A program made the position numbers and the translations under genes. This document shows, in pieces, positions 2,803-35,350 of a DNA stretch of 35,397 nt. The notes beneath the pieces are model-generated. The model ran no database searches. It saw only the letters and a list, made by a program, of their open reading frames with translations, and was not told the DNA's origin. The DNA is from a virus. The DNA lies in IMG/VR virus record IMGVR_UViG_3300035670_000738, positions 1 to 35,397 of that record; one strand, written 5' to 3'. The number at the start of each line of letters is the position of its first letter. The first letter of the stretch is position 1.

Positions 2803-4226
2803 GTTTGATTTCCCGGCTCTCAAAGGTGATTGGTTTCGCCTCTGGCTCAACCTCGGGCTATGATGCGGCCAAGACAACCAGCCGAAAGCGGCAGCCCTCC
2901 AACAATCTGGGCGCTGAGGATACCATCCTCAAGAATTCTGACCGGCGCCTGGTGGTTGCCAGCGCTCGGGATGTGCGGCGCAATTTCGCGGTTGCGCGGT
3001 GGGCCATCAACAAGCATTTGGATTTTGTTGTGAGCCACAATTTCCGGTCCAGGAGCGGGGACCGGGATTTTGACCGGCGCCTCGAGAAATTTGTTGAGCG
3101 GATTTGTGAGGCTGACAAATTCGATGTTTCGGGGCGTCATCCCCATCGGCGTTTCATGCGAATGATGGAGGCGGCCCGGACTGTTGATGGGGACATTTTG
3201 GCGGTCAAGGTTTCTGGCGGCTACCTCCAGGCCATTGAGGGTGATCGCATTCGAGATGGCGGTTTCAAAACTGGGACCGATGAAACCTGGGTCCATGGCC
3301 TCAAGATTGGTTCGGCTGGTGAGGTTTCCAAATTCGCCATCCACAAGCGGACAGGCCAAAACCAGTTTGAGTTTGAGCGAATCGTCACAGCGCCTCGAGC
3401 CATTTGGTTTGGCTATTTCGACAGGTTCGACCAATACCGAGGGGTCCCCTTAATCACGAGCGCGATCAATACGCTCCTGGGGCTTTATGACGGTTTTGAT
3501 TATGCCCTGGCCAAAAGCAAGATTGCCCAACTGTTTGCCCTTTCAATCTACCGCCAGGCCGAGACCGATTGGGGCGGGGGTGTTGGGGATGAGGATGATG
3601 AGAACAGCAGCGGCTCGGCAACCAAAGATTACAACATTGATTTCAGCAAGGGCCCCATTTTCCTGGATTTGAATGATGGCGAGCGGGCCGAGTTCCTCGA
3701 GAGCAACTCCCCAGGGACCGCAACGGCAGAGTTTTGGCAAACTCTCATTTCGGTTTCGCTCAAGAGCCTGGACATTCCTTTCAGTTTTTATGATGAGGCC
3801 TACACCAATTTTTTTGGTGCGAAATCAGCGCTGATTTTGTATCAGAAATCGGCCAAAGAAAAACAACGGGATGTGCGGGAGTTCAACAATAAATGGCTCA
3901 AGTGGCGTTTGAGCCTGGCCATTTTGGATGGTGAATTTGAGGCCCCTGTTGGCTATGACCCTGGGGCCATGCTGTGGCAATGGATACCTGAGGGCGTTCC
4001 CTGGTGGAATCCGAAAGACGAAATCAGCGCCAACATTGCGGCCATTGAGGCCGGATTGAAAACCAGGTCAGAGGTTCGGACTGAGGCCTATGGTGATGAC
4101 TGGCGTGATGTGATTGATGAGTTGGCCGAAGAAAAGAAATACATGGATGAGCGGGGCATTGTTCCCGTTTCCAACAACACGGCAAACCAGGCAGCACAGC
4201 AGGAGCCTCAAAACGATGGCCAGTAA
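2799..4226 (+). CDS. Portal protein, lambda-type
   Basis: The portal forms the dodecameric ring at the capsid vertex through which DNA enters and to which the tail joins. The 475-aa sequence has the lambda-portal-family signature: a DGDILAVKV segment, a LQAIEGDRIRD stretch (the family's 'IepdRI' region), then FDQYRGVPLI, where the family has 'RGvp', followed by a long helix. The C-terminal tail is Gln/Asn rich, ending NTANQAAQQEPQN. It lies directly after the joining protein and overlaps the start of the protease gene by 11 bases, the standard head-gene order. Confidence 0.88.
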   Translation: MSLISRLSKVIGFASGSTSGYDAAKTTSRKRQPSNNLGAEDTILKNSDRRLVVASARDVRRNFAVARWAINKHLDFVVSHNFRSRSGDRDFDRRLEKFVERICEADKFDVSGRHPHRRFMRMMEAARTVDGDILAVKVSGGYLQAIEGDRIRDGGFKTGTDETWVHGLKIGSAGEVSKFAIHKRTGQNQFEFERIVTAPRAIWFGYFDRFDQYRGVPLITSAINTLLGLYDGFDYALAKSKIAQLFALSIYRQAETDWGGGVGDEDDENSSGSATKDYNIDFSKGPIFLDLNDGERAEFLESNSPGTATAEFWQTLISVSLKSLDIPFSFYDEAYTNFFGAKSALILYQKSAKEKQRDVREFNNKWLKWRLSLAILDGEFEAPVGYDPGAMLWQWIPEGVPWWNPKDEISANIAAIEAGLKTRSEVRTEAYGDDWRDVIDELAEEKKYMDERGIVPVSNNTANQAAQQEPQNDGQ

Positions 4227-5493
4227 AAACGGATTGAGAAACGCGCCGGTTTATTTTCGGGGCACAGTGGCCAAGGGCCTCCAGGCTGGCAACAAAGGCC
4301 AAGCCATTGAGCCCGATGGCGGCCGGTTTGGCGCGGGGTTCATTCCCGGGGTTGCGGTGATTACTCGAGGGGAGGCGCTCGGCCATGGGATGTGGGCAGA
4401 TCGGGAGTTCATCGCCCAGGTTGACGCGGCCCTCAAGGCTGAGGCCCAGGGTGTGAAATCACGATACACCCATCCCGATATGAGCGGGGATGCCCTGGCC
4501 AAGGGCCTCGGCCGGATGACCTTGGCCGAGAGCTCGAGCCCTGATGTTGTGCGGGCTGATTTGCACATTTGGAAATCGGCACGAAACAGCCCCGATGGTG
4601 ATATGGGGGCCCATGTGCTCGAGCGAGCGGCAGAGGACCCGGCAAGTTTTGGTGCCTCAATCAGTTTTTTCCATGACCCCCAGGCCGAAACCGAGTTTCT
4701 GTTGGCCCATGGTGCGACTGTTGACAGGAACGGTTGGGTTGACACCAGCGGTTTCAAGAGCCCTGACCCGGACAACATCAACAATTTGCCCCATGTGCGA
4801 TTGGCCAAGCTCAGGGCCATCGATGTGGTTGATGACCCAGCGGCCAACCCCGATGGGCTCTTTCACAGGGATGAGACATTTCAGGAGGCCGAGGCGCTCC
4901 TGGCGTATGTGATCGGTGAGACGAAAGGACCCAAGCCCGAGTTAGTCAAACTCGGGGTTGACCCTGACCGGGCCAGCGGGTTCATCAAACGATTTTTGGC
5001 AACCAGAGGACTTTCAATAATGAAGGCAAAAAACATCGGCCGGTTTGCTGAGGGCAACACCAGTGAAGCGGCAGAGGAAACGGTTGCTGTGGCTGAGGCT
5101 GCGGGGGATGTTGAAACCCCGGTTGCTGAGGTTGTGGCAAGTGATGAGCAAGAGGAAACCGAGGCTCATGAGCCTGGCAACAGCAATGTTGTCACAACCC
5201 GGGTGGTTGCCGAGCTCGGCGTTGACCCTCGGGCCGAGGTCAAGCGCTACATTGCGGCATTTGGTGCCCAGGGTGGTGAGTGGTATGCCGAGGGCCTGAG
5301 TTTCGAGCAATGTTTCCAAAAGCGCCTCGAGCAATTGAGCGCTGAGAATGCCGGCCTGCGCAAGCGCCTGGAGCTCTCTCAGGAGAGCGAGCCATCAGCC
5401 CTTTCCCAGGGTGGCGCCGACAAGCCCGGCAAAAAGCGGGCTGGATTTTCCAGCAAGCTCAAGATCCAAGGGGTTGCACAGCCCCAAGAGTAG
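4216..5493 (+). CDS. Capsid maturation protease fused to scaffold
   Basis: Start chosen at ATG 4216 with AGGAG at 4201-4205; the upstream extension only shadows the portal. The protein is 425 aa. Residues about 75-155 look like a prohead protease of the herpesvirus-assemblin-like class, with candidate catalytic His86 in YTHPD and Ser148 in FGASISF. The rest is a low-complexity acidic region rich in Glu, Ala and Val (about 285-335) and a C-terminal coiled coil (LEQLSAENAGLRKRLEL), the composition of a scaffold. The protease would cleave scaffold and capsid after prohead assembly. An in-frame internal start at 5020 probably makes the scaffold alone, as lambda C/Nu3 does. Confidence 0.82.
   Translation: MASKNGLRNAPVYFRGTVAKGLQAGNKGQAIEPDGGRFGAGFIPGVAVITRGEALGHGMWADREFIAQVDAALKAEAQGVKSRYTHPDMSGDALAKGLGRMTLAESSSPDVVRADLHIWKSARNSPDGDMGAHVLERAAEDPASFGASISFFHDPQAETEFLLAHGATVDRNGWVDTSGFKSPDPDNINNLPHVRLAKLRAIDVVDDPAANPDGLFHRDETFQEAEALLAYVIGETKGPKPELVKLGVDPDRASGFIKRFLATRGLSIMKAKNIGRFAEGNTSEAAEETVAVAEAAGDVETPVAEVVASDEQEETEAHEPGNSNVVTTRVVAELGVDPRAEVKRYIAAFGAQGGEWYAEGLSFEQCFQKRLEQLSAENAGLRKRLELSQESEPSALSQGGADKPGKKRAGFSSKLKIQGVAQPQE
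5020..5493 (+). CDS. Internal in-frame scaffold start within the protease gene
   Basis: ATG at 5020 is residue 269 of the protease/scaffold ORF. It is preceded by AGAGGA at 5005-5010, nine bases upstream, and by ACTTTCAATA. The product would be 157 aa, starting MKAKNIGRFAEG, and would contain only the acidic linker and the C-terminal coiled coil. Producing a free scaffold from an internal start in the protease gene is known for lambda (C and Nu3). The ribosome site is seen; expression is inferred. Confidence 0.6.
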   Translation: MKAKNIGRFAEGNTSEAAEETVAVAEAAGDVETPVAEVVASDEQEETEAHEPGNSNVVTTRVVAELGVDPRAEVKRYIAAFGAQGGEWYAEGLSFEQCFQKRLEQLSAENAGLRKRLELSQESEPSALSQGGADKPGKKRAGFSSKLKIQGVAQPQE

Positions 5494-5561
5494 CAAAAAC
5501 AGCCTGAGCGTTTCAGCAGTTTCCAGCAACAAGCAATTTCCACAATTCGGAGTTTTTTACC

Positions 5562-6497
5562 ATGGCGGATGATCCTTTTGTATTGGCTGATTTCGTGGGC
5601 GATGCCCTCGATTTGAGCCCTGCCCAGGTTACTGACTTGAGCCTGGCGGCCCCTTTCCTGATGGCCCTCCCAATGACTCCCTCGAGCAATGGGACAGCCC
5701 ACAAGTACGTTAAGGAAACCGGCGCCCCTGTGGTTGGTTTTCGTGATGTGAATGCCGGCCGGGAATTTGATTCCTCGGCTGATACGGTTGTGACCGTCAA
5801 CCTCAAGATTCTCGATTTTTCCTGGCTGGTTGACTATGCCCTGGCCAAGGCCTGGCGCAAGGGTGGAGCCCAGGCCCTCATTGCCCGGGAAGGTTTGCGG
5901 CATTTGAAGGCGGCATTTTTCGAGTTTGAGAAGCAAATCATTTATGGGACTGGCAACGCGGCTGGCGGTTTCGCGGGCCTCATTGACAATGCCCAACTCG
6001 ATGCCCTGGCTGACGCCATGGTTGTGAATGCTGGCGGCACTACCGCAAACACAGCCTCGAGTTGCTTCCTGATTCGCGCCGGTGAAGATGCAATGTCAGC
6101 GGTGATGATTGAGGACAACCCGATTGAGCTCGGGGAAACCGTGGTCATTGATGCAACCGATGGGGATGGCAAGCATTACCCAGCCTATTACACCCCTGCC
6201 TCTACCTGGTGCGGGATGCAAATTGGCGGCGCTTACGATGTTTGCCGAATCGCCAACCTGACTGCCGACAGCGGCAAGGGTTTGACCGATGCCCTCATTT
6301 ATGAGGCGATGAGCAAGTTCCCGGGCGGCCGGGTCCCCACCCACATCGTGATGAATCGGCGCAGCCAGGAGCAATTGCGGAAATCGCGCACAGCGACCAA
6401 CGCAACCGGCGCAGCGGCTCCCATCCCCCGAGAGGTTGAAGGGGTGCCCATCATTGTGACCGAGGCCATTTCGACAACCGAAGCTCTCGAAACCTAA
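5562..6497 (+). CDS. Major capsid protein
   Basis: This 311-aa protein follows the protease/scaffold gene after a 68-bp gap. The start ATG 5562 has CGGAG upstream. Features match HK97-fold capsid subunits of siphoviruses: a helical N-terminus, a YVKETGAPVVGFRDVNAG segment where the E-loop should lie, a long helix around ALIAREGLRHLKAAFFEFEK followed by IIYGTG, a central HIVMNRRSQEQLRK segment, and a C-terminal end EGVPIIVTEAISTTEAL that is common to such proteins. It forms the icosahedral shell. No cleaved N-terminal delta domain is obvious, in line with a separate scaffold. A terminator-like hairpin follows about 50 bases after the stop. Confidence 0.85.
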   Translation: MADDPFVLADFVGDALDLSPAQVTDLSLAAPFLMALPMTPSSNGTAHKYVKETGAPVVGFRDVNAGREFDSSADTVVTVNLKILDFSWLVDYALAKAWRKGGAQALIAREGLRHLKAAFFEFEKQIIYGTGNAAGGFAGLIDNAQLDALADAMVVNAGGTTANTASSCFLIRAGEDAMSAVMIEDNPIELGETVVIDATDGDGKHYPAYYTPASTWCGMQIGGAYDVCRIANLTADSGKGLTDALIYEAMSKFPGGRVPTHIVMNRRSQEQLRKSRTATNATGAAAPIPREVEGVPIIVTEAISTTEALET

Positions 6498-6514: not shown

Positions 6515-6901
6515 ATGGCAACACCTGTTGACAGAGCGACAAGCGCGGCCCGCCAGGGGCAAAAATCCCTGGCGGGGCGTTTTGTCATTCTCAAACGGTT
6601 TGTTGACGGAGTGGCGGCAACCGGCAGAGCATTGGCCACAGTTGGGGAAACCCGGGCTGATGAGTTTGTTGAGGGTGGCGCGGTGGTTTTGACCCGGTTT
6701 CGGGATTACCTCATTGACGTTTCAGATTATGTGATTGCGGGGGAGGAAACCGAGCCCTCAATTGACGATCAAATCATTGAGACCATTGACGGGGTTTCGG
6801 TGACATTCCAGGTTTTGCCAACCCCAGGGAGCGCCGGCGTTCGGCACAGTGACCGGGCCAGGCAGGTTTGGCGGCTACACACCAGGCAGGTTTCAGAATA
6901 A
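6515..6901 (+). CDS. Head completion / neck protein (putative)
   Basis: This 128-aa protein directly follows the major capsid gene, where the head-tail connector or head closure protein is expected. The C-terminal half is a predicted beta domain: DYLIDVSDYVIAG, then P..DQIIETIDGVSVTFQVLP, ending VWRLHTRQ, a pattern I know from small neck proteins. ATG 6515 is preferred over TTG 6506; neither has a strong ribosome site. The first codons overlap a strong hairpin (6549-6576). GTG 6611 is a later in-frame alternative. The stop overlaps the next start (TAATG). Confidence 0.6.
   Translation: MATPVDRATSAARQGQKSLAGRFVILKRFVDGVAATGRALATVGETRADEFVEGGAVVLTRFRDYLIDVSDYVIAGEETEPSIDDQIIETIDGVSVTFQVLPTPGSAGVRHSDRARQVWRLHTRQVSE
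6549..6584 (+). terminator. Terminator-like hairpin after the capsid gene, inside the next ORF
   Basis: A perfect 10-bp stem pairs CCCGCCAGGG (6549-6558) with CCCTGGCGGG (6567-6576), around an 8-base loop rich in A. It is followed by GCGTTTTGT. This has the form of an intrinsic terminator or attenuator 50 bases downstream of the capsid stop. It would set high capsid mRNA relative to the tail genes. Unusually it lies within the first codons of the neighbouring ORF. Confidence 0.55.
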
Positions 6902-7446
6902 TGGGATACCGTCGCGGCGCCTCAACCAGAATTGCCAGCGCATTGTTGGGCCTACTCAACAACGGTTCTGCCCCTTATTGGAGCCAATCAGGGGAAACCT
7001 CCTGGGGCTCAACCATCGCATTTTCGAGGGGCGCAATGCCCGAGCTCGACAAGCGCGAATTGACAACGGCCAAGGGGGTGATCATCCCAGCGGCCATTGA
7101 GGGGACCGAATCAGACCGAGGGGCCACAGAGTATTTTGACATTACCATTGCGGTGGGCATTTCCAAAAATGTTGGGACCCAGGCCCAGGGCCGAGAGGGT
7201 GAGATTGATGACCTGGTTTCCCTGGTTGAACAGGTCCAGGATTTCATCAGTTGGGACAGCCAACAGGTTTTGACCTTGCCAGCGGTGGTTGATGGGGCCC
7301 TGGCAGAAATTCAGCCAGCGCATACGGCGCGGCTGTTGCTCCCATTTTCAAACAGCCCGATTTTCGATCCACAGTTGTTGAGGAGTGAGGGGGTTTTCCT
7401 CTCGGTCACAAATTTCATTTACCATTTTGAGACAATAAGGGGCTGA
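6901..7446 (+). CDS. Tail terminator / completion protein (putative)
   Basis: Start at ATG 6901, overlapping the upstream stop (TAATG), giving 181 aa. The sequence begins MGYRRGASTRIASALLGLL and continues with alternating beta and helical segments, including EYFDITIAVGI, a helix around DDLVSLVEQVQDFIS, and a C-terminal strand FLSVTNFIYHFE. By position between the neck protein and the tail tube gene it should be the tail terminator that caps the tube and joins it to the head. I do not recognise a specific family motif. Confidence 0.55.
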   Translation: MGYRRGASTRIASALLGLLNNGSAPYWSQSGETSWGSTIAFSRGAMPELDKRELTTAKGVIIPAAIEGTESDRGATEYFDITIAVGISKNVGTQAQGREGEIDDLVSLVEQVQDFISWDSQQVLTLPAVVDGALAEIQPAHTARLLLPFSNSPIFDPQLLRSEGVFLSVTNFIYHFETIRG

Positions 7447-7447
7447 T

Positions 7448-7921
7448 ATGCCAACCACATTTTGCAGCGATTCGAGCGGCCGGGATGCAAAGCTCTATTA
7501 CAACTCAGGGACGGTGGCCAGCCCAACCTGGGTTGAGATCAAAGAGGCCCGGGATTTGTCCATGCCCATGACTGCCGAGAGCTATGACGACTCGGACAGG
7601 TCAACCGCAATCAAGCTGTTTGGCGCTGGCGGGATTGAAGTTTCCATCAGCGGCAAACTCAGCTACCGCAACGGCAACGCCAATTGTGAGACCATTCGGG
7701 ATTTGTTTTTCAGCCGATGCGCGGCTGAGTTTGCCCTGATGGACGGCCCAATTGCAACCTCGGGCTCGGAAGGGTTCCGGGGTGGTTTCAAGGTGTTCAC
7801 CAACTCCCATGAGTTCCCCCTGGCCGATGGCATGACCGTTGACATTGAGCTCAAGCCAGCCTATTTCGAGAATGGCTCAGGGACTCAAGTTTTGCCAGCC
7901 TGGTACACGGTTGGCAGCTAA
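7448..7921 (+). CDS. Major tail tube protein
   Basis: This is a 157-aa beta-rich protein. The early LYYNSGTVASPTWVEIKEA and late FKVFTNSHEFPLADGMTVDIEL segments match the tail-tube family seen in many siphoviruses, where the subunits stack into the hollow tube. The gene precedes the tail chaperone pair and the tape measure gene, as expected. Its first 18 bases are identical to the first 18 of the gene at 11525, so both proteins begin MPTTFC. Start ATG 7448 with AAGGGG upstream. Confidence 0.8.
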   Translation: MPTTFCSDSSGRDAKLYYNSGTVASPTWVEIKEARDLSMPMTAESYDDSDRSTAIKLFGAGGIEVSISGKLSYRNGNANCETIRDLFFSRCAAEFALMDGPIATSGSEGFRGGFKVFTNSHEFPLADGMTVDIELKPAYFENGSGTQVLPAWYTVGS

Positions 7922-9433: not shown

Positions 9434-11517
9434 CAGCAAGGCAGGTTCGGGCCGGCCAGGCCAATGTTGAGCTCGGCGTTAAGGACCGGCTAGAGGCTGG
9501 TTTGAAATTGGCCGAGAAAAAGCTGAGGGCATTTGGCCAAGGGGCGGCCAAGCTGGGCGGGTTGATTTCTGCGCCATTTGCTGTGTCGGCAACAATGTTT
9601 GCCTCATTTGATGACGCAATCAGGGCAACAGCGGCCGTTTCAGGCGCAACCGGCCGGGAATTGCAAAGCCTCAACGATAGGGCTCGAGAGCTCGGGGCCA
9701 CAACCAGTTTCACAGCGGTTCAGGTTGCCAACTTAATGACCGAGCTCGGCCGGGCTGGTTTCAAGCCTGATGAAATTGAGGAAATGACTCTTGCGGTTCT
9801 CGATTTGTCCCGGGCAACTGGAACAGATGCGGCCCTTTCGGCCGGCATTATGGCGGCAACTCTGCGCCAATTCGGCCTCGGGGCGAAAGATGCGACCCGG
9901 GCGGCTGATGTGCTGACCAAGGCGGCCAACAGCACGTTTAACACGGTTGAGGGCCTGGGCGAATCTCTCAAATATGCTGGGCCTGTGGCCAAATCCCTCG
10001 GGATGAGTTTCGAGGACACAGCGGCGATCCTCGGGGTGCTCGGAAATGTCGGCATTCAAGGCAGCGAGGCGGGAACAGCGCTCAGGCGGCTCTCGGTCAT
10101 TTCAGCGGCCAGCGGTGATGAGCTCAAGCGGATTTTCAACATCGACAATGTTGACAGCGCAACCGGGCAGATGAAACCCCTGGTGCAAATTCTGGATGAA
10201 ATCAACACAGTAACGGCCAACATGCCGGTCCATGAGCGAACAGCCCGCATGGCAGAGGCTTTTGGGCTCTTGGGCATTACCTCGGCAAATGTGCTCTCCC
10301 AAACGGCTGGTGGTGTCACAGAGTTAGCCGAGGTTCTCAGGGGCGCAGAGGGCACAGCGGCCAAGACCGCAAAGGAAATGGACGCGGGCCTCGGTGGCTC
10401 GATTCGCATTGCCCTTTCAGCGGTTGAGGGGATGGCCCTGGCGGTTGGCGATGCCCTGGCCCCAAGGCTCCAGGCTGTGATTGGCAGCCTTACAGAAATG
10501 GCAGGGGTGGTTACCAAAATCATTTCCAACAACCAGGGATTTGTTGCGGCCATTGGTTTCACTGGCGCGGCTCTATTGGCGGCCGGCCTTGCCTCCTGGG
10601 GCCTTAGCTCAGCCATTGCGTTTATGACTCCAGTTTTCACGGCTTTAATCAGTGTGGCCAGCGCCTTGGGCGGGGTGTTGATTTCGGCGTTTGCAGCGGT
10701 CACCAGCCCCATCGGTTTGGTCATTGCGGGCATTGTCGGAATCGGCATTGTGGCCCAAAACCTGTTTGGGGTGTTTGACCCGGTTCTCAACTATTTGGGC
10801 AACGGATTCAATTGGCTGAGAGAGACATTCTCAACAGCCTGGGGCGGCATTTCTGATGCGATTGCAACGGGTGATCTGGCCCTGGCGGCTCAGATCGGTT
10901 TTGCCGGTTTGAAACTGGTTGTGGCCACAGCCATGGAATCGGTGATCGAGCTCTTTGGGGGCTCAATTGAAACCATGTCAGCAATGTTGGCCGAGCTCTG
11001 GAAACAAATTGGCTCGGTTTTGGCCCAACTCAATCTGGCTCGGGCCAGTGTCAGCCAATGGATTGCCGAGCGTATGGGCGATGTGATCGGCGTTCAGGTG
11101 ATGGCCGAGGACAATGCCGATTTGATGGCGGCCCAATCCTGGGGCCAATCTTTCAATCAAATTAACACTGACCAGGTTGCCAAAGACATTGCGGCAACCC
11201 TTTCCCCAGAAACGTACCAGCAAGAGCTCAACAGTTTGGTTGAGCAAGCCCGCAAGGCTCGAGAGGAAATCCAGACCGAGGTTGCCCCAGAAATCGCAGC
11301 GCCTCAAATGCAAGCTCAGACAGCGGCCGGGGGCTCAATGGCCTCGGCTGAGAAGTTCAATTCGGTTGGTTCATTTGCTGCGGCCAGCATTGCCAAAATG
11401 TTGCCAGGGGCCAAGAGCAAAGATGAAAAGTTAGTCACCAATACGGCCAACCTGTTGGTTGAGATGAAGGGACTGAGAGGCGACATTCAAAATTCCCCAG
11501 GTGTTGTTTTCGGATAA
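9430..11517 (+). CDS. Tape measure protein
   Basis: At 695 aa this protein sets tail length and is threaded inside the tube. The first 250 residues carry the characteristic tape measure signature: ELQSLNDRARELGATTSFTA, AAGIM..LRQFGL, TVEGLGESLKYAGPVAKSLG and EAGTALRRL. A block of hydrophobic segments spans about residues 365-450 (FVAAIGFTGAALLAAG through IGLVIAGIVGIG), typical of the part that enters the host membrane at ejection. Using the usual 0.15 nm per residue, the tail should be about 100 nm. Confidence 0.9.
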   Translation: MTARQVRAGQANVELGVKDRLEAGLKLAEKKLRAFGQGAAKLGGLISAPFAVSATMFASFDDAIRATAAVSGATGRELQSLNDRARELGATTSFTAVQVANLMTELGRAGFKPDEIEEMTLAVLDLSRATGTDAALSAGIMAATLRQFGLGAKDATRAADVLTKAANSTFNTVEGLGESLKYAGPVAKSLGMSFEDTAAILGVLGNVGIQGSEAGTALRRLSVISAASGDELKRIFNIDNVDSATGQMKPLVQILDEINTVTANMPVHERTARMAEAFGLLGITSANVLSQTAGGVTELAEVLRGAEGTAAKTAKEMDAGLGGSIRIALSAVEGMALAVGDALAPRLQAVIGSLTEMAGVVTKIISNNQGFVAAIGFTGAALLAAGLASWGLSSAIAFMTPVFTALISVASALGGVLISAFAAVTSPIGLVIAGIVGIGIVAQNLFGVFDPVLNYLGNGFNWLRETFSTAWGGISDAIATGDLALAAQIGFAGLKLVVATAMESVIELFGGSIETMSAMLAELWKQIGSVLAQLNLARASVSQWIAERMGDVIGVQVMAEDNADLMAAQSWGQSFNQINTDQVAKDIAATLSPETYQQELNSLVEQARKAREEIQTEVAPEIAAPQMQAQTAAGGSMASAEKFNSVGSFAAASIAKMLPGAKSKDEKLVTNTANLLVEMKGLRGDIQNSPGVVFG

Positions 11518-17754: not shown

Positions 17755-18948
17755 ATGGAATTTCGACCATCAGCGGCAAGCAGGTGGATGAATTGCCCGG
17801 GTTCGGTGGCCCTTTCGGATGGGATGCCAAGCAAGGCCTCAGACTATGCCATCCAAGGGACTGCGGCCCATGCGGTGTTGGAACAATGCCAGCGCCTCGA
17901 GCTCTCCCCCTGGGATTTTGTTGGGGAGTTCGTCCAGGTTGTTGAGGACGATGCCCAGCATGAGGTTGAGGTCACAGAGGAAATGGCCGAGGCGGTTTCG
18001 GTGTTCCTGGAGCACATTGAGGGTTTGCCGGCCGAATCGGCCATGATCGAAAAATCGATGGCCAGCCAGGAATTTCCCGGGCTCCAAGGGACTGCAGACT
18101 ATCTCAACCCGGTGGGCAAGGGGAAGCGCTCAACCCTGTACCTCAAAGACTACAAACACGGCGCGGGTGTGGCTGTGAGCGCTGAGGGCAACAAGCAGTT
18201 GTTGACCTATGCGGTGCTGGCATTCGAGGCCCTGGGCGAATTTGAGAGTGTTGAGCTCTCAATCATCCAACCTCGGTCCCAGGAGGATGAGGGCCCCAAG
18301 GTCAAAACCTGGCGGCTGAGCAAATCAATTGTGCTCGAGCACAAAGAGGCATTGGCCGAGGCCTACCGTTTGGCCCATGAGGCCAAAGCGGACCCGATGC
18401 CCTATCTGCAACCTGGCGACCATTGCCGATGGTGCCCGGCAAAAGTTGCTTGCCCCAAGCTCCACCAACTGGCCATTGCCGATGCCAAGGCCGATTTCAG
18501 TTTCCCCAACCCGGCTGATATGGCTCGGGAGCGGGTGCTGTTTTGGCTCAACCTGGCACCAGTGATGGCGGATTGGCTCAGGGCCATTGAGGCCCATGCC
18601 AAAAGCCTGGCCGAGCAAGGGGAGCAAATCCCTGGTTGGAAACTGGTGGAATCGATGGGCAACCGGCGCTGGCATGGTGACAGCGCTGATGTGGCTGATG
18701 CCCTCATCAAGGCCGGTTTCGAGGAAACGGCAATCTATGAGCCCAGGGAGCTCAAGAGCCCTGCCCAGGTGGAAAAGGCCTATCCCAAGGCCAAGGGCAT
18801 GAAGGCCAAACAGGCCAAAGACATTGTGAGCAATTTGACGGTGCGCCCCACCATGGGAACCAGGCTGGTGCCCGATGCGGACAAGCGCGAAGCGGTTTTG
18901 AAATCTACCCCCGAGACTGATTTTGAAAAGGTTGAAAACGATGCGTGA
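17755..18948 (+). CDS. DUF2800 PD-(D/E)XK nuclease with Fe-S cysteines
   Basis: This 397-aa protein matches the DUF2800 phage nuclease family. The N-terminus has WMNCPGS (Cys14), then HA at 39-40, GTAD (112-115), a YLKDYK strand with the Asp132/Lys134 pair, and Q148/Y153, the order of motifs in RecB-like nucleases. Cys224, Cys227 and Cys233 (HCRWCPAKVAC), with Cys14, give the four-Cys arrangement of Cas4/AddB-type iron-sulphur nucleases. It should act as the recombination exonuclease, working with the later ssDNA-binding protein. The C-terminal 140 residues are mostly helical. Confidence 0.82.
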   Translation: MEFRPSAASRWMNCPGSVALSDGMPSKASDYAIQGTAAHAVLEQCQRLELSPWDFVGEFVQVVEDDAQHEVEVTEEMAEAVSVFLEHIEGLPAESAMIEKSMASQEFPGLQGTADYLNPVGKGKRSTLYLKDYKHGAGVAVSAEGNKQLLTYAVLAFEALGEFESVELSIIQPRSQEDEGPKVKTWRLSKSIVLEHKEALAEAYRLAHEAKADPMPYLQPGDHCRWCPAKVACPKLHQLAIADAKADFSFPNPADMARERVLFWLNLAPVMADWLRAIEAHAKSLAEQGEQIPGWKLVESMGNRRWHGDSADVADALIKAGFEETAIYEPRELKSPAQVEKAYPKAKGMKAKQAKDIVSNLTVRPTMGTRLVPDADKREAVLKSTPETDFEKVENDA

Positions 18949-20095
18949 GACAAAGGTTGACCCAGGTGTTGGCTATCGGCTGTTGGGAAATGGTGAAACC
19001 ATCCTGGCAAGCGATCAATATAGGGATTACATGGGGCATTGGGTCCCAGCGTTTGAACATTCCATCGGAAAACCGTTTGATAGTCGATGTTTCAACCCAT
19101 ACCGTCGCAAGGTTGAAACGCCAGTTGAGGCCCCAGCAGTTGACCCGGGTGTTGGCTATCGGCTGTTGGAAGTTGGTGAGACTCTCCAGGATGGCGACCA
19201 ATATCAACTCTGCGGTCAGTGGGTTTCAACTGGTGACCCTGGGAGAGTGTTGCAAGTTTCGAAACAGGTTTATCGGCGCAAGCTACCACGGAAAAAAATC
19301 TACATTGCCGGCCCGATGCGAGGCATTCGGCTCTATAACTTCCCAGCCTTTGACGATGCGGCCGAGCGGCTATTCAACCAGGGCTGGGACCCTGTAAACC
19401 CGGCAGACATTGACCGGGATTGTGGGTTTGACCCTGAGAGCCTCCCAGCCAATCACGATTGGGGCACATTGCCCGAAACCCTCAACCTCAGGGACATCAT
19501 TCGGCGCGATGTTGACGCAATCTTTGGATGTGATGCGGTCTATGTGCTCCCAGGCTATGAGCGATCAAGGGGCTCAAAGGCCGAGATTGCCCTGGCTGAG
19601 TGGCTCAACCTCGAGGTCATTTATGAGGCCAAAGAGCCCGAGGCGCCAGTTGCCCCTCTCGAGGCCAACATAAAAACCGTGGGCGAAATTTTGCGGGAAG
19701 CAAATGCCGAGCTCCACCAGGCGGCCCAGGTGACCCTCGAGCCAGAATTGGCCGGTCACCAAAAGGCCATTTTCGATTGGCATGAGGGCATTGAGGCGCT
19801 CAAGGCGGCCGAGGCCCAGGCTGAGGACATTTTGGAAACTGCCCTCAGGATTACCAAGGGAGACCGCCAGGCCCAATACGGCCCTCCTGACCAAGACTTT
19901 CGGCGCACAGCGGCCATGTGGAACGGATTGTTTGCCCACATGCTCCAACCTGGTGCCTCATTTGAGCCCAGACATATTGCCATGGCTATGGTGCTTCTCA
20001 AGCTTTCCCGGTTGATGCACCAGCCAAAACGGGACTCATGGATCGATGTCGCGGGATATGCCCGATGCGGCTCAATCTGTGATGAGGTTGCATAG
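18941..20095 (+). CDS. Multidomain fusion: two phage repeats + DUF4406 + DUF6378
   Basis: Start ATG 18941 overlaps the nuclease stop; AAAAGG lies upstream. The product is 384 aa. Two repeats of about 50 residues come first (7-56 and 68-113), each starting VDPGVGYRLL and then GETxxxxDQY. Next is a DUF4406 domain (119-230) with IYIAGPMRG and a late DAVYVLPGYERSRGSKAEIA, related to nucleoside 2-deoxyribosyltransferases. The C-terminal part (about 291-384: ITKGDRQAQYGPP and HIAMAMVLLKLSRL) matches DUF6378, found next to replication genes. A 31-base DNA repeat (18956 and 19139, one mismatch) underlies the N-terminal duplication. A role in nucleotide pools or base modification is inferred. Confidence 0.75.
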   Translation: MRETKVDPGVGYRLLGNGETILASDQYRDYMGHWVPAFEHSIGKPFDSRCFNPYRRKVETPVEAPAVDPGVGYRLLEVGETLQDGDQYQLCGQWVSTGDPGRVLQVSKQVYRRKLPRKKIYIAGPMRGIRLYNFPAFDDAAERLFNQGWDPVNPADIDRDCGFDPESLPANHDWGTLPETLNLRDIIRRDVDAIFGCDAVYVLPGYERSRGSKAEIALAEWLNLEVIYEAKEPEAPVAPLEANIKTVGEILREANAELHQAAQVTLEPELAGHQKAIFDWHEGIEALKAAEAQAEDILETALRITKGDRQAQYGPPDQDFRRTAAMWNGLFAHMLQPGASFEPRHIAMAMVLLKLSRLMHQPKRDSWIDVAGYARCGSICDEVA

Positions 20096-20101
20096 TCTCC
20101 A

Positions 20102-20161
20102 GGCCGGGCAAGGCTAGGTGAGGCAATGCTGGGAATGGCGAGGCATGGCGCGGCGGGGCTA
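20102..20161 (+). repeat. Degenerate GGCNN pentamer array, copy 1
   Basis: Twelve consecutive five-base units fill exactly 60 bases between two genes: ggccg, ggcaa, ggcta, ggtga, ggcaa, tgctg, ggaat, ggcga, ggcat, ggcgc, ggcgg, ggcta. The array ends in GGTTTTTC, and the next gene's ATG follows at once (20170). GGC is nearly fixed while the last two bases vary. No stem is needed to explain the periodicity. Function unknown; see findings. Confidence 0.8.
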
Positions 20162-20169
20162 GGTTTTTC

Positions 20170-20655
20170 ATGGGCATATATGGCGACAGTTATCAACAAG
20201 CGAGGAAGCGGAGATTGTTATTTGCCGGGGGCAAATGTGAGACCTGCAAATCTGTTGATTTTCTTGAATGCCACCATGCCTCAGAGGAATCATATCGAAA
20301 AGACAGAAACAACCTTTTGGAAATGACAGACGTTGTGATTCTTTGCCGTGAATGTCACGAAGCAATCACCAACATTTTCAGAAACAGGCGATACCAGAAA
20401 CGAAAGACTTTTAAGGGAACAAGCAATGGGCGTTCAGAAATATATTGTGCGTTTGAAAGGGAAAAGCCCCTTGGTGCTCCACAACAATCAATGTGTGGAC
20501 CCGAGGAACTCCCTAAAAAAGCAGATGGCAGCAATCACCAACAAGAAAGGAAAGAAAACCGAAGCGGACCTGGAGGAATTGGAACGGTTGGAGTTTATGA
20601 GCGGCCTCTACATGTGCCCCCAAGCTGGGCCAGTGATCCCAAGAGCCAACATTAG
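20170..20655 (+). CDS. HNH endonuclease-like protein
   Basis: The N-terminal 80 residues form a zinc-bound HNH domain: Cys23/Cys26 (CETC), then ECHH (Cys34, His35, His36), an Asn-containing DRNNLL, and Cys59/Cys62/His63 (CRECH). A metal-dependent DNA nicking or cutting activity is expected. HNH proteins help terminase at cos sites in some phages, or act in recombination. The frame continues to 20655, so 230 bases overlap the next gene; the last 80 residues look like a frame shadow. Natural HNH proteins of this kind are about 80-110 aa, so a frameshift or lost stop is possible. The gene sits between a GGCNN array and the RAMP-loop gene. Confidence 0.65.
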   Translation: MGIYGDSYQQARKRRLLFAGGKCETCKSVDFLECHHASEESYRKDRNNLLEMTDVVILCRECHEAITNIFRNRRYQKRKTFKGTSNGRSEIYCAFEREKPLGAPQQSMCGPEELPKKADGSNHQQERKENRSGPGGIGTVGVYERPLHVPPSWASDPKSQH

Positions 20656-21007
20656 AAGAATGCTCATTGATGGGGCCAGGAAAGACAAAAACGGCAAAGA
20701 GTTTGAGAGCGGGATTTTCCTCTCAGATGATGCGGCAATTGAGTACCAGGGGCCGAGGGATGCCGAGGGCATGTGGGGGCAGCGGGACCAATTTGCATGG
20801 ACCACGGTTGTCAAAAATCAGCGTTCCTCAATTCTGCGGACTCGCCCCAGGTTCAAAGATTGGCAGATTCAATTTGAGGTTTTGACTGAGGACTCAATTG
20901 TTAGTCGAGACATGCTCGAGACAGCCCTGGGGCGAGCCTCGGTTATGTGCGGGATCGGTGATGGGCGGTCAATCGGTTATGGGCGTTTCTCTTTTGAGAT
21001 TTTGTGA
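20426..21007 (+). CDS. Conserved phage recombination-cluster protein with RAMP-like glycine loop
   Basis: Start ATG 20426 with AAGGGA upstream; the longer reading from 20348 is unlikely. The product is 193 aa. I recognise the pattern from phages that also carry a DUF2815 gene: YIVRLKGKSPLVLHN, a basic ITNKKGKKTEADLEEL, FMSGLYM, IPRANIRRMLIDGA, and RTRPRFKDWQIQFE. It ends GIGDGRSIGYGRFSFE (176-191), a glycine-rich loop followed by a strand, as in RAMP-fold Cas proteins. The family has no agreed function. A nucleic-acid-binding partner for the ssDNA-binding protein is a reasonable inference. Confidence 0.7.
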   Translation: MGVQKYIVRLKGKSPLVLHNNQCVDPRNSLKKQMAAITNKKGKKTEADLEELERLEFMSGLYMCPQAGPVIPRANIRRMLIDGARKDKNGKEFESGIFLSDDAAIEYQGPRDAEGMWGQRDQFAWTTVVKNQRSSILRTRPRFKDWQIQFEVLTEDSIVSRDMLETALGRASVMCGIGDGRSIGYGRFSFEIL

Positions 21008-21012
21008 TTCGA

Positions 21013-21052
21013 GGCAAGGATTCGCGTGCCTAGGCTGGGCAAGGCGAGGCTA
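21013..21052 (+). repeat. Degenerate GGCNN pentamer array, copy 2
   Basis: Eight five-base units follow directly after the preceding stop: ggcaa, ggatt, cgcgt, gccta, ggctg, ggcaa, ggcga, ggcta. The array ends with GGTTTTTG. Two central units are off-pattern. It shares its terminal ggcta-ggttttt with array 1. Confidence 0.7.
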
Positions 21053-21060
21053 GGTTTTTG

Positions 21061-21104
21061 AAACAGTGATGGTCTTTGCCCGGGTTCGACTCCTGGGGCT
21101 GTTT
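21061..21104 (+). other. tRNA-like minihelix (acceptor stem plus T-arm only)
   Basis: AAACAGT (21061-21067) pairs with GCTGTTT (21098-21104) as a 7-bp acceptor-like stem with one G-T pair. Directly stacked on its 3' strand is CCCGGG-TTCGACT-CCTGGG (21079-21097) with a 7-base loop that fits the T-arm consensus (G53, T54, T55, C56, G57, A58, C61). No D-arm or anticodon arm is present, only 11 bases. It lies between GGCNN arrays 2 and 3. Could be a chance resemblance or a remnant of a tRNA 3' end. Confidence 0.4.
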
Positions 21105-21111
21105 TTCTCAT

Positions 21112-21166
21112 GGCTGGGATTGGCATGGCTCGGCTCGGCGCGGCATGGCGGGGCGCGGCCCGGCAT
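21112..21166 (+). repeat. Degenerate GGCNN pentamer array, copy 3
   Basis: Eleven consecutive units fill 55 bases: ggctg, ggatt, ggcat, ggctc, ggctc, ggcgc, ggcat, ggcgg, ggcgc, ggccc, ggcat. The array ends with GGTTTTTC, identical to the end of array 1. It lies 41 bases before the ssDNA-binding protein gene. This copy is the most regular of the three. Confidence 0.8.
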
Positions 21167-21207
21167 GGTTTTTCTATTTCTTTGTTTCAGTGTTAGGAGT
21201 TCCTGTT

Positions 21208-21744
21208 GTGGCAAATGAAGTGTTGAGGGTGTTGACTCCCAAATTCCGTGTTTCGTTTCCTGCGGTTTTCAAGGCCGAGGCCTATGAGGGCAAAGAGCCC
21301 AAGTTCTCTATCACCATGCTTTTCGATGGCAAAACCGATTTATCGGCATTGAAAGCAGCGGCCAACGCGGCCCTGGATGAGAAATGGCCGGACAAGAAAA
21401 AGCGGCCGGCCAATCTTCGCTCCCCGTTTCGGGATGGCGCTGAGAAACCGGATCTGGATGGCTATGACGGTTGCATTTTTGTGAGGGCAACCAGCAAGAC
21501 CAAACCGGGCCTGGTTGACCAAAACCTCCAGGCCATCATTGACCCGGCTGATTTTTATGCGGGTTGTTTCGCGCGAGCCACAATTCGGGCCTATGCCTAT
21601 GACAACTCAGGCAATCGCGGTGTGGCCTTTGCCCTGGACAACATCCAGAAATTGGGCGATGGCGAGCCATTCAGCGGCAAGACAACGGCCGAGCAGGATT
21701 TCGCGCCGGTGGCCTCGGATGATGGCGGGGATGACATTTTTTAG
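21208..21744 (+). CDS. DUF2815-type single-stranded DNA-binding protein
   Basis: Start GTG 21208 with AGGAG at 21195-21199; the ATG upstream would translate the GGCNN array and is rejected. The 178-aa product has the DUF2815 layout: an N-terminal strand LTPKFRVSFPAVFKA, PKFSITMLFD, a helix (LSALKAAANAALDEKW), FRDGAEK, then FYAGCFARATIRAYAYDN and VAFALDNIQKLGDGE. The last residues are very acidic (DDGGDDIF), like the tails of ssDNA-binding proteins that contact partner enzymes. It would protect ssDNA in replication and aid annealing with the DUF2800 nuclease. A strong terminator follows. Confidence 0.85.
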   Translation: MANEVLRVLTPKFRVSFPAVFKAEAYEGKEPKFSITMLFDGKTDLSALKAAANAALDEKWPDKKKRPANLRSPFRDGAEKPDLDGYDGCIFVRATSKTKPGLVDQNLQAIIDPADFYAGCFARATIRAYAYDNSGNRGVAFALDNIQKLGDGEPFSGKTTAEQDFAPVASDDGGDDIF

Positions 21745-21944: not shown

Positions 21945-22028
21945 ATGGGCAAGGATGCCGGCCAGGATGTTTTGGTTGTTGGTGATGATGTGCTCCAGTG
22001 GGTTGTTGGTTTGGGCTGGGTGATGTGA
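21945..22028 (+). CDS. Possible short leader ORF coupled to DNA polymerase
   Basis: ATG 21945 has AAAGGGA about 6 bases upstream and encodes 27 residues (MGKDAGQDVLVVGDDVLQWV and on). Its stop overlaps the polymerase start (ATGTGATG). A polymerase ribosome site is otherwise hard to see, so translational coupling is plausible. In-frame ATG 21930 is an alternative start. No family recognised. Confidence 0.35.
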   Translation: MGKDAGQDVLVVGDDVLQWVVGLGWVM

Positions 22029-23908
22029 TGATTCATCTCGATTTTGAAACCCGGTCAACCTTGGATCTCAAGTTGGTTGGGGTCTATGAGTATGCGGCCC
22101 ACCCATCCACAGACATCATTTGCATGGCCTGGGCCATCGATGATGGGCCTGTTTCTATCTGGGCCCCAGGCCTACCGGCCCCAAACTGGCCAAAAGGTCA
22201 TTTAGTCTCGGCCTGGAATGCCGCATTTGAGCGGAATATCTGGAGCCACATTTGCCAAATCCGATATGGGTTCGAGCCAATCGAGTTTGAGCGGTGGCGC
22301 TGCACCATGGCCAAAGCGGCAGCCATGGGCCTCCCCCAATCCCTTGATATGTTCGCCAGGGTCACAGGCCTCGAGGCCCAAAAGGATGAGAGCGGCAAAA
22401 GGGTCATGCTCAAACTGGCCAAGCCCAAAAAGGCCAAAGAGGGCCCGGCCCTGTTTGATGATGAGGCCCAGTGGCATGAATGCCCGAAAGACCTGGCAAC
22501 GGTCTATGAGTATTGCCGGCAGGATGTTGAGGTTGAGCGCCAGGCCGATAGGTGGATGAGGGATTTGAGCCCTCGAGAATTGCGGGTTTGGCAACTGGAC
22601 CAAACCATCAATGATCGAGGCCTCGAGGTTGACCGGGTGCTCTGTGCCAATGCGGTGCGAATCGTCAATGAGGCCCAGGAGGAATTGGCCCTCGAGCTCC
22701 AGGCCATCACAGGTGGCGCGGTCCAGGCTCCAACCGAGGTTGCCAAACTCAAAGAGTGGCTCGAGCTCCAGGGCGTTCAAACGCCAACCCTGGGGGCCAA
22801 TGATGTTGTGGCCTTGCTCAAAGGCAATTTGCCCCCAGCGGCCAGGCGGGCCCTCGAGATTCGGCAGATTGCCGGCAAGAGCTCCACAGCCAAATTTGAG
22901 GCCATGCTGGTGCGGTCTCAGGCCGGCCGGATGCGCGGCAACCTACGCTATCACGGCGCCGGCCCAGGCCGGTGGAGCGGCATGGGGGCGCAAATCCAAA
23001 ATTTCCCTCGGGGCTCGGTGAAGAAAAACAGAATCGGCCTCCTGGCCGAGCTATTCCGGGAAGGTGACCGGGAGGCCCTCGAGCTCTTTTTCGGTGACCC
23101 AATCGAGGCGGCCAAATCCGTTTTGCGTTCGGCCATTGTGGCTCCTGCCGGCCGGGTGCTCCTGGTTTGGGACTATGCCCAAATTGAGGCGCGGATTTTG
23201 GCCTGGTTGGCCGGGGAAACTCAATTGGTGCGGGAATTTGCCCAGGGCTCAGACGTTTATCGATCATTCGGCTCCAGGCTATTCAGCAAGCCCCTCGAGC
23301 GCATTGACGATGCCGAGCGGTTCATTGCCAAAACCTGTGTGCTCGGCCTGGGCTATGGGATGGGGGCGGCCAAGCTCAAGGCCACATTGGCCGGCTACGG
23401 CACCAGCATTGATGACCGTTTCGCCAAACGGTGTGTGGACACCTATCGGGCAACCTATCAGCGCATTGTCAAACTCTGGGGCTCAGTGGAGCGTCAGGCC
23501 ATTTCGGCAAATGGCATGTTTCGCAAATGGGATAAGTTCCTCGCGCTGATTCTGCCGAGCGGCCGGGAGATTCTCTATTTCGACCCGCAAGTTAAGGGCG
23601 AGGGCGAGCGCCTCAAACTGACTTACAAGACCACAACCGGCAAGAGCGTTTTTCGTGATGAGACCTATGGGGGCAAGCTGGTGGAGAACATTGTCCAGGG
23701 CCTTGCCCGGGATGTGCTGGTTGACGGGATGTTTGCCCTGACTGGTGCGGGGTTTGAGATTGTGGCGACGGTCCATGATGAGGTTATTGCCGAGAGCGAA
23801 ACTGACCGGCTCGAGGAAGGAATCAAATTGCTGACCGAACCCCAGGCCTGGGCGGCTGGGTTGCCATTGGCCGTTGAGGGTTTTGTTGCCGAGAGGTATC
23901 GCAAATGA
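22028..23908 (+). CDS. Family A DNA polymerase (Pol I-like) with 3'-5' exonuclease
   Basis: Start ATG 22028; the product is 626 aa. The exonuclease motifs are DFET (Asp5, Glu7), NAAFE (64-68) and YCRQD (162-166). Polymerase motif A is WDYAQIEARI (Asp382), motif B is the RFIAKTCVLGLGYGMG segment (431-446, Lys435, Tyr443), and motif C is VHDE (582-585). No 5'-3' exonuclease domain is present, as in T7-type replicative polymerases and many phage PolA proteins. It should replicate the phage genome with the primase-helicase at 26335 and the ssDNA-binding protein. The stop overlaps the following start (ATGA). Confidence 0.95.
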   Translation: MIHLDFETRSTLDLKLVGVYEYAAHPSTDIICMAWAIDDGPVSIWAPGLPAPNWPKGHLVSAWNAAFERNIWSHICQIRYGFEPIEFERWRCTMAKAAAMGLPQSLDMFARVTGLEAQKDESGKRVMLKLAKPKKAKEGPALFDDEAQWHECPKDLATVYEYCRQDVEVERQADRWMRDLSPRELRVWQLDQTINDRGLEVDRVLCANAVRIVNEAQEELALELQAITGGAVQAPTEVAKLKEWLELQGVQTPTLGANDVVALLKGNLPPAARRALEIRQIAGKSSTAKFEAMLVRSQAGRMRGNLRYHGAGPGRWSGMGAQIQNFPRGSVKKNRIGLLAELFREGDREALELFFGDPIEAAKSVLRSAIVAPAGRVLLVWDYAQIEARILAWLAGETQLVREFAQGSDVYRSFGSRLFSKPLERIDDAERFIAKTCVLGLGYGMGAAKLKATLAGYGTSIDDRFAKRCVDTYRATYQRIVKLWGSVERQAISANGMFRKWDKFLALILPSGREILYFDPQVKGEGERLKLTYKTTTGKSVFRDETYGGKLVENIVQGLARDVLVDGMFALTGAGFEIVATVHDEVIAESETDRLEEGIKLLTEPQAWAAGLPLAVEGFVAERYRK

Positions 23909-33929: not shown

Positions 33930-33997
33930 CCCCCAGGGGCCAAATCGGCCCTGGGGGTTTTAGCCCCCAGCGGCCAAATCGGCCCTGGGGGTTTTTT
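33930..33997. terminator. Tandem intrinsic terminators between convergent genes
   Basis: Two near-identical hairpins, 34 bases apart: CCCCCA paired with TGGGGG around GGCCAAATCGGCC, with T4 after the first (to 33961) and T6 after the second (33992-33997). The second starts at 33964. They stop rightward transcription before the leftward gene at 34004. The first T run and second CCCCC could also pair, giving an alternative fold. Confidence 0.9.
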
Positions 33998-35088: not shown

Positions 35089-35286
35089 ATGCAAGAGAAC
35101 AAACGGCCAGGCCGGCCGCCAACAGAGCGAGGGGCCTATAACCCAAACCCTCCTAGGCAATTGGGCCGGGTGAGTGATGAGGATTGGGCCACATTGCAAG
35201 AGGCGGCCAAGGCCTCGGGCCAATCATTCACCCAATGGGCATTGGGCCATTTGTTGAAAGCAGCTAGGGAACAAATCTCAAAATGA
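35089..35286 (+). CDS. Small RHH/Arc-like DNA-binding protein
   Basis: This 65-aa protein begins MQENKRPGRPPTERGAY, basic and AT-hook-like, and ends with a helix-turn-helix-like or RHH-like unit (VSDEDWATLQEAAKASGQSF, then TQWALGHLLKAAREQI). This matches small regulators or mobilisation-type proteins that pair helices. The first of three operators overlaps its stop codon (35276-35288), which suggests that it or a relative binds there. By position next to the terminus and terL it might also serve as a small terminase. Ribosome site is weak. Confidence 0.5.
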   Translation: MQENKRPGRPPTERGAYNPNPPRQLGRVSDEDWATLQEAAKASGQSFTQWALGHLLKAAREQISK

Positions 35287-35338
35287 GATTTTCAGGTTGT
35301 CTCAAAATGAGAATTTTTAATCCTGTCTCAAAATGAGA
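35276..35338. promoter_or_regulatory. Three 13-bp palindromic operators
   Basis: TCTCA-AAA-TGAGA occurs three times, exactly: 35276-35288, 35300-35312 and 35326-35338, spaced 24 and 26 bases. The arms are 5-bp perfect inverted repeats. The spacing of about 2.3-2.5 helical turns suggests cooperative binding of dimers. If the genome circularises, they lie about 140 bases upstream of terL, so they could control late packaging genes or serve terminase. Confidence 0.65.
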
Positions 35339-35350
35339 TTTTTTATCTCG

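Follow-up and report, generated by a model that had tools for sequence, protein, structure and literature searches.

Pentamer arrays in the replication module of an uncultivated phage are very likely guide RNA genes of a VIPR system

Introduction

What are the three arrays of GGCNN pentamers that occupy successive gaps between replication and recombination genes of an uncultivated phage, and what might they do? The window analyzed here is the whole of IMG/VR record IMGVR_UViG_3300035670_000738 (35,397 nt). An earlier note on this DNA, made from the letters alone, had described the arrays and proposed a structured 5' leader, a protein-binding track, a recombination hot spot or a Rho-type transcription signal. 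A search of the literature on phage repeats of the GGCNN or pentanucleotide kind returned nothing useful.

VIPR (Viral Interference Programmable Repeat), a phage-encoded relative of CRISPR that recognizes DNA with RNA guides, was first reported in a 2026 preprint and is, as of 2026, a known kind of system (PMC13142463). According to the preprint's main text, its guides (vrRNAs) consist of 9-16 GGY/NN pentamers and follow a 1-nt skip rule, whereby the NN pairs recognize double-stranded DNA and one base, mostly the codon wobble base, is skipped per unit; in nature it targets competing phages and satellites, and an accessory vap gene is typical, though not universal. The main text also names pseudoknot tails, staggered arrays and hammerhead-interspersed arrays, and the Vipr homologue studied there has stable RNAs of ~100 nt and targets dsDNA in an NN-dependent manner (PMC13142463). 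Here we present evidence that the window locus is very likely a VIPR system and its arrays vrRNA genes.

Results

Three pentamer arrays within a replication and recombination module

A recount confirmed the 31 units, the strict five-base period throughout and the array starts (20102, 21013 and 21112) given in the earlier note, with the units split 12, 8 and 11 across the three gaps. The triplet is exactly GGC in 24 of the 31 units, the exceptions being GGT, TGC, GGA (three times), CGC and GCC. All three arrays are non-coding, lie on the strand of the adjoining vipr gene (+) and are followed 3' by GGTTTTT; as described before, this end stands just ahead of a gene start or structured element, here the HNH ATG, the tRNA-like element and the Shine-Dalgarno (SD) sequence with GTG in turn, and a structured element comes after vrRNA2 only. 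With its 8 units vrRNA2 is short and degenerate against the 9-16 units given in the preprint's main text (PMC13142463). Folding of the array RNA was no better than that of shuffled sequence. The features of the locus are as follows, with vrRNA names used for the putative guides.

17755-18948, DUF2800 exonuclease gene, neighbour of the locus
18923..20095, + strand, DUF4406 + DUF6378 gene, directly upstream of vrRNA1 and ending 7 bases before it; vrRNA1 is predicted to target homologues of this gene in other viruses
20024..20058, + strand, own copy of the DUF6378 motif, DSWIDVAGY; best own-genome vrRNA1 site at a 1-nt skip, 18/24
20102..20161, + strand, vrRNA1 array, 12 GGCNN-type units, NN = CG AA TA GA AA TG AT GA AT GC GG TA
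20162..20168, + strand, vrRNA1 end GGTTTTT (short 3' tail), directly 5' of the HNH start codon (ATG 20170)
20170..20655, + strand, HNH endonuclease-like ORF, 3' part overlapping vipr in another frame
20426..21007, + strand, vipr, 193 aa, phrog_4652 (function not assigned there), a RAMP protein with an RRM core and a C-terminal Gly-rich loop
21013..21052, + strand, vrRNA2 array, 8 units, three of them degenerate, NN = AA TT GT TA TG AA GA TA
21053..21059, + strand, vrRNA2 end GGTTTTT, followed by the tRNA-like element
21060..21105, + strand, tRNA-like element
21112..21166, + strand, vrRNA3 array, 11 units, NN = TG TT AT TC TC GC AT GG GC CC AT
21167..21173, + strand, vrRNA3 end GGTTTTT, upstream of the SD and GTG (21208) of the ssDNA-binding protein gene
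21208..21744, + strand, Enc34-type ssDNA-binding protein gene, downstream of vrRNA3
21998-23908, DNA polymerase A gene, neighbour of the locus

The locus sits within a replication/recombination module, of which the Enc34-type gene is probably a mere neighbour outside the VIPR system. The first 230 bases of vipr also belong, in a different frame, to the HNH ORF, whose last ~75 codons may be spurious; lying upstream of vipr, this ORF is a possible candidate for an accessory gene. Next to the window vipr we found no homologue of the genes located downstream of vipr in relatives (the vap kinds). Elsewhere in the window, positions 33930-33995 hold a 34-base direct repeat that looks like a tandem terminator, and positions 35276-35345, close to the end of the record, hold a 26-base tandem repeat.

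Pentamer arrays accompany one protein family

Scanning IMG/VR for four exact GGCNN units followed by GGTTTTT yielded 49 contigs, nearly all of which carry long arrays in several gaps, with the remaining sequence unrelated. When the ORFs of these contigs and the window were compared all-against-all, a single family was present in 31 of the 50 loci, namely that of the window's phrog_4652 protein. Retrieval was then based on protein only, through four scans with the Vipr family (a first family alignment, too divergent for searching, had been replaced by four sub-alignments), and gave 320 viral loci. A period-5 array was present in 281 of these, as against 2 after the DNA was shuffled, a check that the earlier note had proposed, and 3-6 for periods 4, 7, 8 and 11; periods 6, 9 and 12 were raised, as expected from coding DNA, and period 10 is the double of 5. 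Of 675 arrays, 665 share the orientation of the vipr gene. The earlier note had held that related phages lacking the five-base period, or equal runs elsewhere in this genome, would speak against its reading; the relatives do show period 5, and elsewhere in the window there are only chance four-unit GGNNN runs at 9444 (+), 33664 (+) and 29955 (-).

Among isolated phages, vipr-linked arrays occur in LittleE, Trine, MakoManhole and LESphi2; the period test overlooked phage BWHA-1, in which just a weak run adjoins a tRNA-like element. Across the family the triplet varies while the period of five is kept: GGT in Felixounavirus ESCO50 (L064), GGA in L118, GCA in phiHSIC and GTY in L078. Arrays of the non-GGY kinds (GGANN, GCANN, GTYNN) were seen in L118 (3553-4355), L059 (5612-5881), L078 (3889-3957) and L085 (2557-2745), the last possibly on the reverse strand. 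Some of these variants may be new when set against the preprint's main text (PMC13142463), and together they offer natural covariation material for how Vipr reads its triplet.

Array architecture varies as well. Locus L033 carries very long GGCNN arrays on the minus strand (4849-5544, 6078-6328, 6880-7502), whose phase slips by one base (a GGCA unit) every 5-18 units and which are probably the staggered arrays of the preprint (PMC13142463). In locus L034, 15 tandem GGCNN arrays with ~35-base AG-rich spacers (347-2121) lie upstream of a vipr gene at 2257. The Mycobacterium phage LittleE (L053) carries between its tail genes a reverse-oriented cassette (4670-6451) made up of vipr, one further gene and five arrays.

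The encoded protein is a homologue of SUSP1 Vipr

A profile of 24 relatives searched against the PDB matched 36pp, 'SUSP1 Vipr protein' (chain 36pp_D), over its full length at E=5e-31, with Csm5 at E=0.01; the window protein alone also retrieved 36pp_D, at E=6e-18. The AlphaFold model (pLDDT 94) displays an RRM-type core and a C-terminal Gly-rich loop. Its best Foldseek matches were Csm3 and type VII Cas7 (E about 1e-6), VIA-align gave Z 11-12 to Csm and type VII subunits, and PADLOC reported a weak Cas7_IIIg match across the G-loop. Residues W146, G176, R181 and G186 are invariant in the family. The phylogenetic tree leaves the position of the window protein loosely resolved, and tRNA-like elements are scattered across the same tree; the window adds an uncultivated phage whose Vipr appears deep-branching, a placement that is not firm.

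vrRNA1 matches a conserved motif of DUF6378-like proteins

Read as codons under the skip rule, the nine tail-proximal NN pairs of vrRNA1 give D/E-N/K-W/C-I/M-D/E-I/M-A-G-Y, which fits DNWID[IM]AGY, a conserved motif of DUF6378. The corresponding 18-base core pattern found at least 120 exact stretches in a viral scan, as against 7 for vrRNA2 and 3 for vrRNA3 with patterns of equal size. All 119 of the vrRNA1-core matches checked were codon-aligned, and the peptides displayed all read DN[WC]ID[IM]AGY, which is the segment conserved among DUF6378-like proteins. Over the same 119 matches the three distal units scored at chance level (mean about 19.6/24, best 22/24).

No match to a 22-base vrRNA1 pattern was obtained in bacterial genomes, nor to the vrRNA3 pattern in a genome scan. 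The 7 viral matches of vrRNA2 were not read in frame and those of vrRNA3 were near chance, two of the 3 being one tape-measure gene; neither array yielded a convincing target. In a pooled test of skip rules 0-3, with 563 arrays against 2.3 Mb of VIPR neighbourhoods, there was no excess at skip 1, and the perfect matches seen at skip 3 probably stem from array copies that had escaped masking.

A tRNA-like element separates vrRNA2 and vrRNA3

The element between vrRNA2 and vrRNA3 reads GAAACAGU-GAUGGUCUUUG-CCCGGG-UUCGACU-CCUGGG-GCUGUUUU. It is predicted to form an acceptor-like stem stacked without a gap on a T-arm with loop GUUCGACUC; an 11-nt linker (GAUGGUCUUUG) joins the two on the 5' side, the 3' strands are contiguous, and the result is a 12-bp acceptor/T-arm stack with a T-loop and with the anticodon arm missing. 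In tRNA the acceptor/T stack likewise measures 12 bp (7+5), and RNase P and RNase Z need no more of a substrate than such a stack with a T-loop. ARAGORN and Rfam each returned 0 matches in the window, and the elements of relatives were likewise unrecognized.

The same design adjoins arrays in about 19 other loci. Among 26 distinct elements, the stack measures 12 bp in 16 and 11 bp in 7, the linker 9-12 nt, and an ANGG-type motif is present in 25. Compensatory changes occur at every level of the stem except one that was fixed by the search motif, in counts biased towards structure by a detection rule that included pairing. A covariance model retrieved 40 copies at E<=1e-4, with the next match only at 0.6; all 40 lie on the vipr strand and several were outside the training set, to which the window element itself (E=6.6e-8) belongs.

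Other structured RNAs were also encountered. Across the 36 loci examined, no hammerhead match reached the gathering score. Locus L008 has a Type-P5 twister ribozyme match (3087-3151, minus strand, 46 bits) kilobases from the VIPR arrays of the same contig, and in locus L310 a complete tRNA (3705-3775, Rfam 67.5 bits) directly follows a GGCNN array ending in GGTTTTT.

Discussion

Collectively, Vipr homology, the RAMP fold, the linkage between protein and arrays, the kept period, the literature and the vrRNA1 target match lead us to identify the window locus as a VIPR system with high confidence. Its testable sequence features agree with VIPR, except that a clear vap gene is missing and vrRNA2 is short. 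The protein-binding track proposed in the earlier note came close, in that homology indicates that the array RNAs are bound by the product of the gene lying between them, but the role of the arrays as guides had gone unrecognized.

The arrays could in principle be cis operator tracks in mRNA leaders, bound by a TRAP-like regulator with one triplet per subunit and NN as spacers, for autoregulation. They share with the (G/U)AGNN leader sites of TRAP (MtrB) the five-base period, the layout of triplet plus NN and a number of about 11 units; they lie on the sense strand, and GGTTTTT frequently stands right before an SD and start codon. We nevertheless regard this explanation as very improbable. The protein is a RAMP of unrelated fold with no TRAP ring, no TRAP family match for the locus proteins was found in Pfam, and TRAP does not read NN, whereas a homologue has stable ~100-nt RNAs with NN-dependent targeting of dsDNA according to the preprint's main text (PMC13142463). 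Long array series without intervening genes (L034, L032) and inverted cassettes (L053) also argue against operators. The proposal of a 5' leader fails, since arrays also adjoin genes unrelated to replication, such as those around the inverted cassette in the LittleE tail operon. A Rho-type signal is unlikely, as such a signal should not be linked to a single protein family and the C-rich, G-poor composition that it calls for is lacking in GGC-rich RNA, and a recombination hot spot would leave the shared orientation of arrays and vipr unexplained. The chance that the arrays form a G-quadruplex or another self-structured RNA or DNA, with GG every five bases, is close to nil: GGN3GGN3GGN3GG would suit a two-layer form, but C is conserved as much as GG, the arrays fold no better than shuffled sequence, and the GCANN and GTYNN arrays of relatives are unable to form one, the GCANN arrays refuting the quadruplex as a general explanation.

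Within the VIPR reading, two parts call for separate weighing. vrRNA1 might regulate the phage's own DUF6378 gene rather than competitors, given that this gene holds its best own-genome site, a score equalled by shuffled unit orders in 33 of 1500 cases. That own site, however, has 6 mismatches, which affect two core units, while at least 120 sites in other viruses are perfect over all nine tail-proximal units, and we consider self-regulation quite unlikely. Because the core is mismatched to the own copy and matches the common form, the sequences point to action on related phages, and vrRNA1 most likely serves to exclude those with the commoner DNWID[IM]AGY form of DUF6378. As for the tRNA-like element, it might be the remnant of a tRNA gene or a hairpin arisen by chance, with no role in the system: tRNA genes occur in viral genomes, a true tRNA adjoins an array in L310, and the window element alone folds no better than shuffles (z -0.6). 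This too seems unlikely, since 40 of the 47 such structures in all DNA examined adjoin arrays (several of the rest resemble real tRNA ends), arrays lie on both sides in 28 of 37 cases, the stack is a constant 11-12 bp with compensatory changes, and the covariance-model copies keep to the vipr strand.

The stack and T-loop, as a minimal RNase P/RNase Z substrate, instead suggest vrRNA excision as the probable role of these elements, and the window element probably frees vrRNA2 and vrRNA3 through RNase P/Z. We see about an even chance that the locus represents a VIPR variant in which guides lie between minimal tRNA-like elements (12-bp stack, T-loop, ANGG linker, anticodon arm missing) that recruit host RNase P/Z, in effect a natural tRNA-guide array. 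If so, the elements would account for the release of individual vrRNAs from a shared polycistronic transcript. The word tRNA appears nowhere in the preprint's main text, relative to which tRNA-like spacing of guides may be new (PMC13142463).

On the model of the preprint (PMC13142463), Vipr in the window phage would polymerize on each vrRNA, such that each subunit covers five bases, holds the GGC-type triplet and exposes the NN dinucleotide; the NN series would pair with dsDNA as NNx NNx ..., the skipped base usually being a codon wobble base, and the guided ribonucleoprotein would shut off transcription of its target and so repress competing phages. VIPR has been proposed as an RNA-guided ancestor of CRISPR with a non-contiguous code, and the window supplies a concrete predicted target for it, a DUF6378 motif that is altered in the phage's own copy.

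Compared with the VIPR systems of Escherichia phage SUSP1 and a P. fulva prophage, as presented in the preprint's main text (PMC13142463), the window shares a homologous Vipr, GGY/NN vrRNAs both up- and downstream of vipr, their sense orientation and a phage-borne location. Its Vipr is about 30% identical to theirs, its arrays end in a short GGUUUUU where theirs have a pseudoknot tail, and it differs further in the tRNA-like element between two arrays, the lack of an adjacent vap1-like gene and the replication/recombination setting. With hammerhead-interspersed VIPR arrays and polycistronic tRNA-gRNA constructs it has in common structured spacers between guides, self- or host-processed there and putatively so here; unlike those ribozyme- or tRNA-flanked arrays, the window's spacer is neither a ribozyme nor a full tRNA but a minimal tRNA-like element without an anticodon arm. 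By comparison with class 1 CRISPR-Cas, the window has no CRISPR repeats and spacers (Tandem Repeats Finder detected no repeat-spacer array in it) and no other cas genes, and the RNA period is five bases and sequence-specific rather than six bases and non-specific. What it shares with the Cas7 subunits Csm3 and type VII Cas7 is the RRM/RAMP fold, the G-loop and, on the VIPR model, a guide that would be read with periodic skips.
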